This document shows, piece by piece, positions 4,156 to 38,751 of a stretch of 64,000 nucleotides of DNA; position 1 is the first letter of the stretch; every line of letters begins with the position of its first letter. Both the position numbers and the translations under genes were made by a program. The notes beneath the pieces were generated by a model. That model ran no database searches. It was not told the DNA's origin and was given only the letters and a program-made list of their open reading frames with translations. This stretch comes from Devosia sp. (GTDB lineage Bacteria > Pseudomonadota > Alphaproteobacteria > Rhizobiales > Devosiaceae): assembly GCF_014860165.1 (NCBI RefSeq), contig NZ_JACZKG010000018.1, positions 38,535-102,534 of the forward strand. The letters run 5' to 3'.

Positions 4156-5145
4156 GTGGTGATTTCTTCAGGACAATCGGCGGCCGTCGAACGCGGAACG
4201 CGCATGCTGCGCACCGCGCTAGGTCCGGCCGTCGCTCGGTTCTTGGAAGACCCCACGATCGTCGAGGTGATGCTCAACCCCGACGGGCGGCTCTGGGTCG
4301 ACCGGCTGACCGAAGGCCTCGCGGATACCGGCGAGCATCTGACGCCCACCGATGGCGAACGCATCATCCGCCTCGTGGCGCATCATGTCGGCGTCGAGGT
4401 TCACGCCGGTTCGCCACGAGTTTCCGCGGAGCTGCCGGGAACGGGGGAGCGCTTCGAGGGCCTTTTACCGCCGGTCGTGGCGGCTCCCGCCTTCGCCATT
4501 CGCAAGCCTGCAGTCGCCGTGTTCACTCTAGGGGACTACGTGGACGCCGGCATCATGTCGGCTGCGCAGGCCGACGTTCTGCGCCAGGCCGTCACTGGGC
4601 GGCAGAACATTCTGGTTGCCGGTGGAACGTCCACCGGCAAAACCACCCTCACCAACGCCCTCCTCGCTGAGGTCGCCAAGACGGCCGATCGCGTGGTGCT
4701 CATCGAAGACACGCGCGAGCTGCAATGCACCGCACCCAACCTGGTGGCGTTGCGGACTAAGGATGGCGTGATCTCCCTGTCCGATCTCGTGCGCTCGTCG
4801 CTGCGGCTTCGACCCGACAGGATTCCGATCGGCGAGGTTCGCGGGCCCGAAGCTCTCGACCTGCTCAAAGCTTGGTCGACCGGACATCCCGGGGGCATCG
4901 GCACCATTCACGCTGGATCCGCCGTGGGTGCCCTTCGGCGCCTCGAGCAGCTCATCCAGGAGGCTGTCGTCACAGTGCCCCGCGCCCTGATCGCCGAAAC
5001 CATCGACGTCATCGCCGTGCTCTCCGGCCGCGGGACGGCCCGGCGCCTCGTCGAACTCGCCCATGTCACCGGGCTCGGGGCCAGCGGCGACTACGAGCTC
5101 TCCCCTGCCCTCACGTCCCCCGAACCCACTGGAGCCTCCGTATGA
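4156..5145 (+). CDS. trbB: TrbB, VirB11-type secretion ATPase
   Basis: Hexameric cytoplasmic ATPase that powers pilus assembly and substrate transfer in the P-type conjugative type IV secretion system. The 329 residues show the Walker A motif GGTSTGKTT (156-164), an Asp box VLIEDTREL (181-189), a Walker B region RIPIGEVRG (222-230) and a His box GTIHAGS (249-255), all as in VirB11/TrbB. Length is typical. It is the first gene of a tightly packed operon; its stop overlaps the start of trbC (ATGA at 5142). The start at 4156 matches the family N-terminus. An earlier in-frame start cannot be excluded. Confidence 0.95.
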   Translation: MVISSGQSAAVERGTRMLRTALGPAVARFLEDPTIVEVMLNPDGRLWVDRLTEGLADTGEHLTPTDGERIIRLVAHHVGVEVHAGSPRVSAELPGTGERFEGLLPPVVAAPAFAIRKPAVAVFTLGDYVDAGIMSAAQADVLRQAVTGRQNILVAGGTSTGKTTLTNALLAEVAKTADRVVLIEDTRELQCTAPNLVALRTKDGVISLSDLVRSSLRLRPDRIPIGEVRGPEALDLLKAWSTGHPGGIGTIHAGSAVGALRRLEQLIQEAVVTVPRALIAETIDVIAVLSGRGTARRLVELAHVTGLGASGDYELSPALTSPEPTGASV

Positions 5146-5474
5146 ACCTGACAATCCTCCGCGCCCGTCCACGGATCGCTGGCACCGCGCTCGCCGCATC
5201 GCTCAGCCTCATGGTGACCCAAGCCGCTTATGCCGCCGGATCGTCGATGCCCTGGGAAGAGCCCTTGCAGCAGGTTCTCGAATCCATCGAGGGGCCCGTC
5301 GCCAAGATCATCGCGGTGATCATCATCATCGCCACCGGTCTGACCCTTGCCTTCGGCGACACATCTGGTGGCTTCCGCCGCCTCATCCAGATCGTCTTCG
5401 GTCTCAGCATCGCCTTCGCAGCTTCGAGCTTCTTTCTCTCCTTCTTTTCCTTCGGCGGCGGAGCGCTGATCTGA
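5142..5474 (+). CDS. trbC: TrbC, VirB2-type conjugative pilin
   Basis: Prepilin of the mating pilus, 110 aa. A leader of about 32 residues ends at an AYAAG-type cleavage site. It is followed by a short amphipathic part and two hydrophobic segments (about 54-70 and 81-105) around the loop FGDTSGGFRR, as in VirB2/TrbC pilins. In RP4 the mature pilin is processed and cyclised by TraF; no such peptidase gene is seen here. It starts inside the trbB stop and shares its own stop with trbD, so the genes are translationally coupled. Confidence 0.93.
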   Translation: MNLTILRARPRIAGTALAASLSLMVTQAAYAAGSSMPWEEPLQQVLESIEGPVAKIIAVIIIIATGLTLAFGDTSGGFRRLIQIVFGLSIAFAASSFFLSFFSFGGGALI

Positions 5475-5737
5475 TGGACGAGCCCGTCCCCGGATTTACT
5501 GCCCCCCTCCATCGCGCCCTGACTGAGCCCATCCTACTTGGTGGCGCCCCGCGCGCGGTCGCCATCCTCAATGGCACGCTGGCGGCCGCGCTCGGCCTCG
5601 GCCTGCGGCTTTGGCTCGTCGGCATCGTGCTTTGGGCCATCGGCCATCTGGCCGCCGTCTGGGCGGCACGGCGCGATCCGCTCTTCGTCGAAGTAGTGCG
5701 CCGACACCTGCGCATCCCCGCCAATCTCAATGTCTGA
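5474..5737 (+). CDS. trbD: TrbD, VirB3-type inner membrane protein
   Basis: Small inner-membrane component (87 aa) of the conjugative channel, equivalent to VirB3. It starts PGFTAPLHRALTEPILLGG, the typical polar N-terminus of TrbD, followed by one long or two short hydrophobic segments (about 28-63), then the ending VVRRHLRIPANLNV. The ATG overlaps the trbC stop (TGATG). It works with the TrbE ATPase encoded just downstream. Confidence 0.92.
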   Translation: MDEPVPGFTAPLHRALTEPILLGGAPRAVAILNGTLAAALGLGLRLWLVGIVLWAIGHLAAVWAARRDPLFVEVVRRHLRIPANLNV

Positions 5738-37249: not shown

Positions 37250-37341
37250 CCAAACTTCGCGTGTCCTTCCGAACTTCGTGAACTGGATTCGCCGGATCCG
37301 CGCCCAACACCCAGTCGTCCTACAGCTCAAGGTTTAGCCCC

Positions 37342-38751
37342 ATGACACCTCGTCAATCCCCTGCTCAGGGGGGAATTGTCCCGCAGCTCTGCGAGATCGT
37401 CGCCGCACGCCAACGGGTGCCCTATGCAGCACCGGCGGAACTAGTGCGGGTGGTGCCGGACATTCTGGCGGTAACGCTCGGCGGCAGTCTGACTGGACCG
37501 GCCCTGTCCCTCGCCGGTCTATCGTCGACCGGGGATGCTGCCGGATCTGCCCGCCTTTGGGGCCATGGTCGGGCCGTCTCCGTTCGGGACGCCGTCCTGG
37601 CAAATACCTTCGCCGCCCACGCGTTGGATTTCGACGACGACGAGACCGAGACCGCAATGGCGCACATGTCGGTCACACTCGTGACTGCCGCCCTCACATC
37701 GTGTGATGCAGCGATCGGGCCGGTTTCCGGCCAGCGCCTTTTCGCGGCATGCGCGGCCGGCTACGACGTCGCAATGGCGGTCGGAGAGTTGACCAACCCT
37801 GGGATGTACAGGGCCGGCTGGCATGCGAGCGCAACGCTAGGAGTATTCGCATCGGCTGCCGCCTGCGGCGCTCTGGCGAACCTCTCACCCGACCGCATGG
37901 CGGTCGCCTTCGCGCTTGCCGCCTCTTTGGCCAGCGGCGTCCGTGGTGCTTTCGGGGGAGACGGTAAACCGCTTCAAGTCGCCCAGGCGGCCGCATCGGG
38001 CTTGCTCGCCGTGCAGTTGGCGCAGCGTGGCTTCAGCGCCCCCGAGGATGCGCTGAGCGGTGCCCGAGGATTCCTGGGGGTACACGGTGCGGTCGGACGA
38101 TCATTCGGGACACCGGTGGCGTTTCCGCCTCCAGGATTCGTGGTCAAGGCCTATCCAACGTGCACTGCCACCCACGCCGCGGTAGCGGCGGTACTCGACG
38201 CCGCTACCGACGTAGCGGACGGGGATTCCATCCAGCGGATCGAATGTGCCGTCGACGCCTTCGTCCCGACCATCCTGCTGCAGGGCACTCCTTCGACGCC
38301 CGACCAAGCACGATTCAACATGGCGTACTGCCTCGCCCGTGCGGCGATCGATCGACGACTTGGACCGGACGCTTTCAGGCCGGGTGCCCTGACGAATTCC
38401 GACGTGCTAGACCTGATGAACCGCGTGGAGGTAACGGCGGCGCACGACCTACCGAAAGGTCCGAGTGGCATCTCTACAGGCGCTCATGTCGTGCTTCACA
38501 CCCGTGCTGGCGTGACCATTTCGCGCACTCGCACCACCGCTCCCGGCAGCGTCACTTCACCTCTTTCCGACGACGAACTGTTGGCTAAATTCAGCTTGTG
38601 TCTAGAGCCGTTCGTTACGCGAGTTGAGGCGGCAATGCACTTCGAGGCGCTCCTTAGGCTGCCGGACGCCGATGACGTCATGACGATACTCGGGCCCCTG
38701 TTCGATCTTGTTTACATTGCGCGCGGGAATGGCCGAATGGTAACTCAGTAA
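37342..38751 (+). CDS. MmgE/PrpD family protein
   Basis: 469-aa protein of the MmgE/PrpD family (2-methylcitrate dehydratase, cis-aconitate decarboxylase, iminodisuccinate epimerase). Typical segments are NTFAAHALDFDDDETETAMAH (71-91), LFAACAAGYDVAMAVGEL and FVVKAYPTCTATHAAVAAVLD. The activity here is unknown. It follows aspA by 92 bp on the same strand. Iminodisuccinate epimerase, known from Agrobacterium, works together with a C-N lyase, so a stereochemical step before the lyase is an attractive inference. Confidence 0.85.
   Translation: MTPRQSPAQGGIVPQLCEIVAARQRVPYAAPAELVRVVPDILAVTLGGSLTGPALSLAGLSSTGDAAGSARLWGHGRAVSVRDAVLANTFAAHALDFDDDETETAMAHMSVTLVTAALTSCDAAIGPVSGQRLFAACAAGYDVAMAVGELTNPGMYRAGWHASATLGVFASAAACGALANLSPDRMAVAFALAASLASGVRGAFGGDGKPLQVAQAAASGLLAVQLAQRGFSAPEDALSGARGFLGVHGAVGRSFGTPVAFPPPGFVVKAYPTCTATHAAVAAVLDAATDVADGDSIQRIECAVDAFVPTILLQGTPSTPDQARFNMAYCLARAAIDRRLGPDAFRPGALTNSDVLDLMNRVEVTAAHDLPKGPSGISTGAHVVLHTRAGVTISRTRTTAPGSVTSPLSDDELLAKFSLCLEPFVTRVEAAMHFEALLRLPDADDVMTILGPLFDLVYIARGNGRMVTQ

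Follow-up and report, generated by a model that had tools for sequence, protein, structure and literature searches.

A moc-type catabolic gene set and a luxR–luxI pair beside the Tn4371-like trb module of a chromosomal island in Devosia

Ti and opine plasmids are textbook examples of gene transfer that is gated by opines and controlled by quorum sensing. Here we describe a 64,000-nucleotide stretch of DNA from Devosia sp. (the window: bases 38535–102534 of contig C48, NZ_JACZKG010000018.1, in an assembly of 4.46 Mb and 87 contigs) in which a trb mating channel, a LuxR/LuxI pair and a gene set resembling the moc genes of the Agrobacterium plasmid pAoF64/95 lie side by side on a chromosomal island. 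A first-pass annotation of this DNA had proposed a quorum-sensing conjugative element that carries genes for the catabolism of Amadori compounds.

Results

The trb operon (4156..13480, + strand) comprises trbB, C, D, E, J, K-alt, L, F, G and I, identified by tblastn and, for trbB, E, L, G and I, also by Pfam. It is followed by a gene for a DUF2274 protein that is conserved behind trbI (13477..13710, +; tblastn). The encoded proteins are 48–83% identical to proteins from Paracoccus TOH and Indioceanicola (tblastn), and all eleven aligned stretches (ten trb genes plus DUF2274) are free of internal stops. By gene order, trbBCDEJ(K)LFGI, and by sequence this is a Tn4371-like module, and the full mating channel of the first-pass annotation is confirmed.

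The opposite strand encodes the LysR regulator of the element (13926..14819, −; Pfam; start placed at M49 of a longer open reading frame, ORF), an acyl-homoserine-lactone synthase LuxI (14960..15616, −; Pfam, 131 bits) and a LuxR regulator (15694..16431, −; Pfam Autoind_bind and GerE). Both LuxI and LuxR match solved structures. With its autoinducer-binding, GerE and synthase domains this is a LuxR/LuxI pair, as annotated before. LuxI is 62–66% identical to LuxI of six plasmid records, and LuxR is up to 55% identical to plasmid-borne LuxR. We rejected an assignment of LuxR as a TraR orthologue because chains of CviR, QscR and LasR score slightly above TraR. The G+C content of luxI and luxR (57–58%) agrees with that of the catabolic genes (58–62%, PrpD 65%) and not with that of trb (66%).

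The catabolic cargo adjoins luxR. On the same strand follow genes for a D-amino-acid transaminase-like protein (DAAT: 16522..17382, −; NCBIfam 352 bits, cutoff 320), a FrlD/MocE-like PfkB kinase (17543..18412, −), a MocC-like SDR oxidoreductase (18560..19306, −) and a protein of the ornithine cyclodeaminase/mu-crystallin family (OCD: 19452..20432, −; Pfam, NCBIfam). The row OCD–SDR–PfkB–DAAT–LuxR–LuxI–LysR thus lies on one strand, with gaps of 77–160 bases. Further along are a MocB-like 6-phosphogluconate dehydratase (Edd: 25767..27662, −; NCBIfam), an amino-acid-type ABC importer with two permeases, a binding protein and an ATPase (27786..30935, −), an MrtR-like GntR/UTRA regulator (31087..31839, +; start at M52 of a longer ORF), a chemoreceptor of the Cache_3 type (32332..34368, +) and an SIS deglycase of the FrlB/FraB/MocD type (34660..35640, +; NCBIfam, structures, tree). 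The listed deglycase ORF, which starts at 34579, is probably too long. The first-pass annotation had named the regulator, importer, chemoreceptor and Edd, all of which are present by profile matches. Its list was incomplete in that the SDR at 18560 and a MocA-like aldo/keto reductase (AKR: 23350–24420, +) also belong to the set.

Comparison with pAoF64/95 gave identities of 82% for AKR/MocA, 76% for Edd/MocB, 73% for SDR/MocC and 51% for SIS/MocD. The Moc names (PMC6341043) were matched by us to annotated genes of this plasmid from the order mocCBAR plus motABCDmocDE. With the kinase included, homologues of MocA to MocE occur together in the window at 32–82% identity, and at the level of sequence this is a moc-type gene set. 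The best NCBIfam model for the kinase is fructoselysine 6-kinase, FrlD (193 bits; cutoff 247, not reached), and assignments as ribokinase or KDG kinase were rejected with other models at 85 bits or less. For the SIS protein the top solved structure is 3eua, a fructose-amino-acid-6-phosphate deglycase (306 bits). Assignments as GlmS or NagB-II were rejected on structure scores of 58 bits for GlmS and 46 bits for 8eol, a glucosamine-6-phosphate deaminase. Among NCBIfam models FrlB scores 106 bits (cutoff 430, not reached) and GlmS 80. Judged by these scores the protein is closer to deglycases than to SIS proteins of the GlmS/NagB type. All 18 aligned rows share its E215, which also aligns with the sole Glu replaced by Ala in chain 9otu relative to 9otj; we take both structures to be FraB, although the depositors call them just 'SIS domain protein'. 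The E214A variant of FraB is inactive (PMC12755824), and E215 is likely the conserved catalytic Glu. NCBIfam, structures and the pAoF64/95 comparison place kinase and deglycase in the Frl/Fra/Moc type, in agreement with the first-pass annotation, and the scores favour these families over GlmS, NagB-II, ribokinase and KDG kinase.

All of 80 deglycase loci carry a PfkB gene of the same family within their flanks (up to 10 kb per side, less at contig ends). Deglycase homologues from Mesorhizobium M0047 and Neorhizobium are 85% and 83% identical to the window protein. These two group with the window protein in an 18-row clade (support 100/99) of a 43-row tree, which holds deglycase homologues only, selected by us from the 80 loci and listed proteins (one of 44 rows was dropped as too short). 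A second clade of 20 rows (100/99) contains sequences from Ti plasmids, Rhizobium brockwellii, Rhodospirillaceae R-7, Acetobacter and Mesorhizobium 61-13. At 1e-90 the deglycase was found in 18 of 397 genomes of the order, counting that of Devosia sp. itself. At 1e-100 this was the one genome with a match among 385 of the class, and at 1e-105 none of five in the family of genome G169 had one. The catabolic type is well supported as a moc-type (mannopine/Amadori) set, for which the substrate is predicted.

The limits of the island emerged from comparison with the same-genus genome G008. Window 3995–14817 (trbB to LysR) matches G008 at 90.4% DNA identity, with TrbB, E, L, G and I at 92–96% protein identity, and the homology ends at the LysR start codon. 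In G008 the segment that matches window 40898 onward begins about 1.7 kb past the trb–LysR stretch, at the same chromosomal site. The G008 element thus carries the same trb module at radC without lux genes and cargo, which in Devosia sp. (14820–40897) sit between LysR and the element end common to both (40898..41478, no strand assigned). The equivalent slot in G008 is filled by ORFs of 326 and 136 amino acids and contains no opine genes despite an orthologous LysR. The right attachment site, TGCACAACCACCC (41479..41491, no strand assigned), lies in a gene that we presume to be radC from its translated HNHPSGD motif, with no database match behind the name. Genus-typical chromosome starts at about 41480, and all 41 genomes of the genus that were searched, including the present one, contain the right-flank DNA. 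PurB of the genome also points to Devosia, with 98% identity to a Devosia entry and with this genus as the commonest name among the 120 matches listed of 7524. Among five relatives compared, the site is uninterrupted in G010, G015 and G030, and G028 has other DNA on the left. The N-terminal half of radC stops at position 186891 of contig C75 of the same genome. An ORF that spans this junction matches Pfam Phage_integrase (27.1 bits, at the cutoff) and Phage_int_M, and a 13-base core, TGCACAACCAYCC, is present at both junctions. As in Tn4371-like integrative and conjugative elements (ICEs), an integrase and attachment repeats are found at a chromosomal site, given the C75–C48 link that we infer. 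If these contigs carry its two ends, the island comprises at least 31 kb on C75 and 80 kb on C48. A boundary separating trb from the cargo was sought in the G008 comparison and not found; the common end lies past the cargo. That trb and cargo belong to one island, as the first-pass annotation had assumed, is therefore well supported. In Mesorhizobium, radC is listed as an ICE site (PMC8627217).

Both moc promoters of pAoF64/95 carry an identical palindrome, TTGGTATATACCAA, in keeping with the 14-bp repeat reported in PMC6341043. The window contains a single site within two mismatches of this operator, TTGGAGTATACCAA (34594..34607, no strand assigned; two mismatches), 53 bp before the deglycase gene, with 0.05 such sites expected in 64 kb (20 shuffles). 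Equally close sites occur at 14 of 40 proteobacterial deglycase loci and at one of 40 control stretches, a count in which the 40 loci were picked afterwards by record title and the other 40 of the 80 are left out. Weak candidates, again without assigned strand, are GTGGAGTATTCCAA (19427..19440; four mismatches), 121 bp before the mocC-like SDR gene, and CTGGATTACTCCAA (30987..31000), between the importer and the GntR gene. A looser motif, NTGGNNTANNCCAN, has three sites in 64 kb, namely before mocD, before mocC and in the importer–GntR gap, and in 100 simulated sequences it averaged 0.28 sites, with three in none. Intergenic DNA makes up 11% of the cargo. Taken at face value, these operator-like sites suggest a regulon that would include the strand leading to luxR.

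Arrangements of a similar kind were found in other genomes. In Mesorhizobium 61-13 (a metagenome-assembled genome) mocC, mrtR, mocD and mocE are 85, 61, 73 and 69% identical to their pAoF64/95 counterparts, the mot genes reach 63–85% in the longer of their pieces, mocB is present only as two fragments, and mocA was not seen in the stretch. This operon points to a LysR gene (62% like that of the window), followed by DUF2274 and trbI. Acetobacter DsW_063 has mocC (75%), mocD (70%) and mocE (70%) with a different LysR (29%) and trbI, G, F and L. Element-borne deglycase copies occur in both clades of the tree, and trbI of the Acetobacter and Mesorhizobium elements is 47% and 84% identical to that of the window, which suggests separate recruitments. 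Agrobacterium vitis CG957 is the sole record among 72,556 plasmid records with the LysR at E ≤ 1e-60 (59%). Here, oxidoreductases and an octopine/nopaline-dehydrogenase-family gene (by annotation) lie on the strand that runs into LysR, beside a trb set with CopG and TraG. Two of these three slot parallels, Mesorhizobium and Acetobacter, came to light by way of the deglycase and are biased; the way to CG957 led through LysR. LysR of G008 is 75% identical to that of the window. Among 397 genomes of the order the LysR was found at E ≤ 1e-70 in the own genome only, a result that is uninformative because few candidates per genome were scored (six in the rows shown). Other records show quorum or transfer genes beside the deglycase. 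Rhodospirillaceae R-7 (a Dongia-like scaffold) carries deglycase, kinase, SDR, LuxR, GDPD and LuxI on one strand (PfkB to LuxI, 11051–15669), and on plasmid pRltCC275eA of R. brockwellii traR–MCP–SDR is divergent from a moc-like GntR–ABC–PrpD–SIS–PfkB set. The latter is a possible case of opine-driven traR in Rhizobium. In Stagnihabitans and Defluviimonas deglycase and kinase lie between TraG-like and VirB-like genes. Four stretches of Rhodobacteraceae type (L078, L080, L086 and L087) contain the deglycase–kinase pair and open with a TraG-like gene; in L078 and L080 VirB11/VirB10-like genes adjoin the pair.

The genome of Devosia sp. encodes LuxI on three contigs, one gene on each, and conjugation genes are present on all three. 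Contig C29 carries a Ti-type LuxI–trb–LuxR set with TraA and TraG, and on C78 a LuxR/LuxI pair (LuxI 58% identical to that of the window) lies next to a VirB-type system with a coupling protein (TraG).

Several further features complete the picture of the window and its surroundings. The AKR gene is part of a + strand group (20590..25636) with genes for an SDR, a PALP enzyme, a YheO-PAS/HTH regulator and an AbrB-family membrane protein. Behind the deglycase lie genes for an aspartate ammonia-lyase (35798..37249, +; NCBIfam subfamily, 701 bits, cutoff 510) and an MmgE/PrpD protein (37342..38751, +), the nearest solved structure of which is IDS-epimerase 2hp0. A small ORF between DUF2274 and LysR (13699..13908, −) is 79% like an ORF of G008; ribbon-helix-helix-like is our own label for it, with no family call. 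To the left of the trb module, adjoining short Argonaute and TIR genes (window −3042 to −272; PADLOC pAgo_I 604 bits, Aga_TIR 695 bits) likely form a short-prokaryotic-Argonaute defence pair; PADLOC, run on ten ORFs, otherwise gave weak matches in two G008 ORFs. Two ORFs of 549 and 405 amino acids (417–2066 and 2205–3422), without Pfam or PADLOC match, lie in DNA of lower G+C content, where traG and CopG would be expected. On contig C16 of G008 about 6 kb of other genes between CopG and trbB form a second variable slot. The left flank on C48 and the C75 arm hold many genes for amino acid catabolism (D-serine dehydratase-like, DAO oxidases, aminotransferases, ABC importers), and both known island arms also contain genes of the transposase or integrase-core type. 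At 43873–43991 lies a dispersed repeat of about 120 bp, possibly hairpin-forming, with many copies in both orientations in several same-genus genomes.

Discussion

We tentatively propose, at somewhat less than even confidence, that the moc-type set occupies a variable slot beside trb and that its sugar–amino acid compound switches on luxR–luxI. An opine compound of the Amadori or mannityl kind would enter through the ABC importer, the MocC-like SDR would convert the mannityl to the Amadori form by oxidation, and the MocE/FrlD-like kinase would phosphorylate the latter. The MocD/FrlB-like deglycase would then split the phosphorylated compound into glucose 6-phosphate and an amino acid, with Edd channelling the sugar into the Entner–Doudoroff path and the aspartase deaminating aspartate, if aspartate is the amino acid part. 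The GntR/UTRA protein may repress from the sites before mocD, before mocC and between the importer and its own gene. Its release in the presence of the compound would allow transcription of the mocC–mocE–DAAT–luxR–luxI–lysR strand, and at high cell density LuxR could act on trb directly or through LysR. This coupling of the cargo to the quorum pair is plausible but unproven. The parallels in other genomes, by analogy, favour it.

A number of observations weigh against this proposal. The kinase is just 32% identical to MocE and the GntR protein just 38% to MrtR, and MocD of pAoF64/95 lies outside the clade of the window deglycase, in the 20-row clade. At up to four mismatches from the pAoF64/95 operator the window has five sites with 7.5 expected, and the mocC site alone means nothing. 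The motif NTGGNNTANNCCAN was partly shaped after two of its three sites had been seen, and no site within two mismatches was found in the R. brockwellii and A. vitis CG957 stretches. The DAAT–luxR gap contains a terminator-like hairpin with a T-rich tail (16486..16503, −), which speaks against read-through, as well as a weak promoter-like match; neither exceeds chance counts (hairpin type: 6.2 expected in 7.3 kb and 6 found). Upstream of trbB no lux box was identified, and dyads compared ahead of luxI, luxR, traA or trbB across four systems gave no clear picture. Lux or conjugation genes were found near eight of 80 deglycase loci and one of 40 control stretches (profile scan, p = 0.13); p fell to 0.014 when the count was restricted afterwards to the 40 proteobacterial loci, and four of the eight (L078, L080, L086 and L087) have a common arrangement that may go back to a single event. 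C75 and C48 remain unjoined in the assembly.

Transfer functions are a further point against. In two Tn4371-like neighbours examined traG and CopG precede trbB. On C48 no match to TraG, CopG, DUF3363 or a Ti-type relaxase was obtained (tblastn, profiles), and profiles for TraG, DUF3363 and the Ti-type relaxase found none on C75 183001–218329. The same profile search detected trb, LuxI and LuxR on C48, nothing on the C75 stretch, and DUF3363 and TraG in G008. The relaxase profiles covered DUF3363 and Ti-type TraA. Nowhere in the assembly is there a DUF3363 match, and it lacks an orthologous TraG, the closest being 33% identical (C78) compared with 77% in G008. For the types searched, the coupling protein and relaxase of Tn4371-like elements were therefore not found; the element would depend on outside functions for its transfer, or it is a relict. 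By these searches the conjugative element of the first-pass annotation is incomplete, and self-transfer is not supported by the assembly.

These findings could also be read as a passive mosaic, in which the slot collected the cargo and a lux pair with its own promoter and terminator, trb is a stranded remnant, and there is no working coupling. We consider this a serious possibility, though one that also falls short of an even chance. The TraG and relaxase result for the types searched, the hairpin before luxR, the lack of an identified lux box before trbB, the different content of the G008 slot, and a left flank with partial-looking, scattered catabolic genes and a transposase are all in line with it. 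In contrast, the trb genes are open and their products 92–96% like those of G008 (TrbB, E, L, G and I), so that any loss would be recent, and opine operons recur beside LysR/trb or luxR in other genomes. The architecture may also be the proposed one with another substrate, such as fructosyl-aspartate or -asparagine (Fra-like) or a different aspartate conjugate, the aspartate part being handled by the aspartase and the IDS-epimerase-like protein. The genes for these two proteins come after the deglycase, MmgE/PrpD precedes the deglycase in R. brockwellii too, and a gene with an aspartate-dehydrogenase domain lies near the pAtS4c relative. The MocA, MocB and MocC homologues (73–82%) point instead to mannityl opines, and we regard an aspartate conjugate as possible but distinctly less than an even bet. 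A further reading, which we consider improbable, is that the lux pair arrived together with the cargo and works for a different conjugation system in this cell. The pair does resemble the LuxR/LuxI of repABC plasmids and of C78 (LuxI 62–66% and 58%), such a pair adjoins traM and trbI in three plasmids examined and lies behind traB in two, and TraA and TraG are available on C29 and TraG on C78. However, C78 and C29 each have a LuxI and LuxR of their own, and the window pair lies on the strand that runs into the LysR gene of the island.

Beyond Devosia, the slot beside LysR of Tn4371-like elements might serve as a port for opine-type operons that read into element regulators, such that chromosomal elements of Devosia, Mesorhizobium, Acetobacter and A. 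vitis would be licensed to transfer by food from plants or decay. We consider this generalisation rather unlikely. As part of it, luxR–luxI behind moc genes in Devosia and Dongia would correspond to what Wetzel and co-workers had anticipated in mannopine plasmids and did not find on pAoF64/95. According to the first-pass annotation, such a coupling on an ICE outside Agrobacterium would be new. The chromosomal island is a new variant, but the Devosia case is new only in part, because quorum-dependent transfer induced by the Amadori compound DFG has been published for pAoF64/95 (PMC6341043); moreover, traR lies beside a moc-like set in R. brockwellii. Among the titles and abstract openings of the matches listed, with subscription journals mostly outside the search, none reported the coupling of a moc or Amadori operon to quorum control on an ICE, or such a case in Devosia. 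If opine gating does extend to chromosomal islands, the Amadori compounds in rotting plants may act as general signals that license gene transfer, also in soil bacteria not known as tumour formers. Operons of the moc or opine kind lie repeatedly beside trb/LysR or luxR/traR, which provides several cases for comparison.

Comparison with Known Systems

The closest known system is pAoF64/95, where mannopine induces TraR-dependent transfer, DFG is the true inducer and also induces the TraR-dependent transfer promoters, and MrtR is a GntR/UTRA protein (PMC6341043). The Devosia island shares with it MocA-, B-, C-, D- and E-like proteins, a regulator of the GntR/UTRA family, an operator of like form ahead of mocD, and quorum and conjugation genes on the same element, although these lie about 70 kb from the catabolic genes in pAoF64/95. 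That plasmid is of the repABC type, with Ti-type tra/trb, a monocistronic traR (which its authors had thought to find with the mot operon) and TmsP, which titrates TraM (PMC6341043). The Devosia set, in contrast, lies on a chromosomal Tn4371-like island, with luxR–luxI behind the mocE-like gene and another type of importer; of the window genes that were compared, LuxR alone matched TmsP.

In the Ti plasmids pTiR10 (occ) and pTiC58 (arc), traR is part of an opine operon (PMC6341043). Here, as in Devosia, the quorum regulator lies on the strand of opine-catabolic genes. These plasmids use other opines and regulators and the functional link is demonstrated, whereas in the Devosia island it is proposed. 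With Tn4371-like ICEs and the G008 element the island shares the order trbBCDEJKLFGI–DUF2274, LysR (as in G008), the radC site and an integrase at the far end (on C75). It differs in that traG, CopG and relaxase were not found and in that the slot beside LysR holds lux and moc genes.

ICEMlSym of Mesorhizobium is likewise an ICE with quorum control of transfer, in a genus with radC among its ICE sites, but its cargo is for symbiosis, and the word opine is absent from the main text of PMC8627217. Gall bacteria use opines according to PMC10745273, the main text of which contains neither integrative nor Devosia. Like FrlB and FraB, the window deglycase is an SIS protein with a conserved Glu and a kinase partner, whereas it belongs to an alphaproteobacterial clade of its own and scores below the NCBIfam FrlB cutoff. 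Genes for Amadori catabolism are also found on conjugative At plasmids (PMC4992315, PMC4231840).

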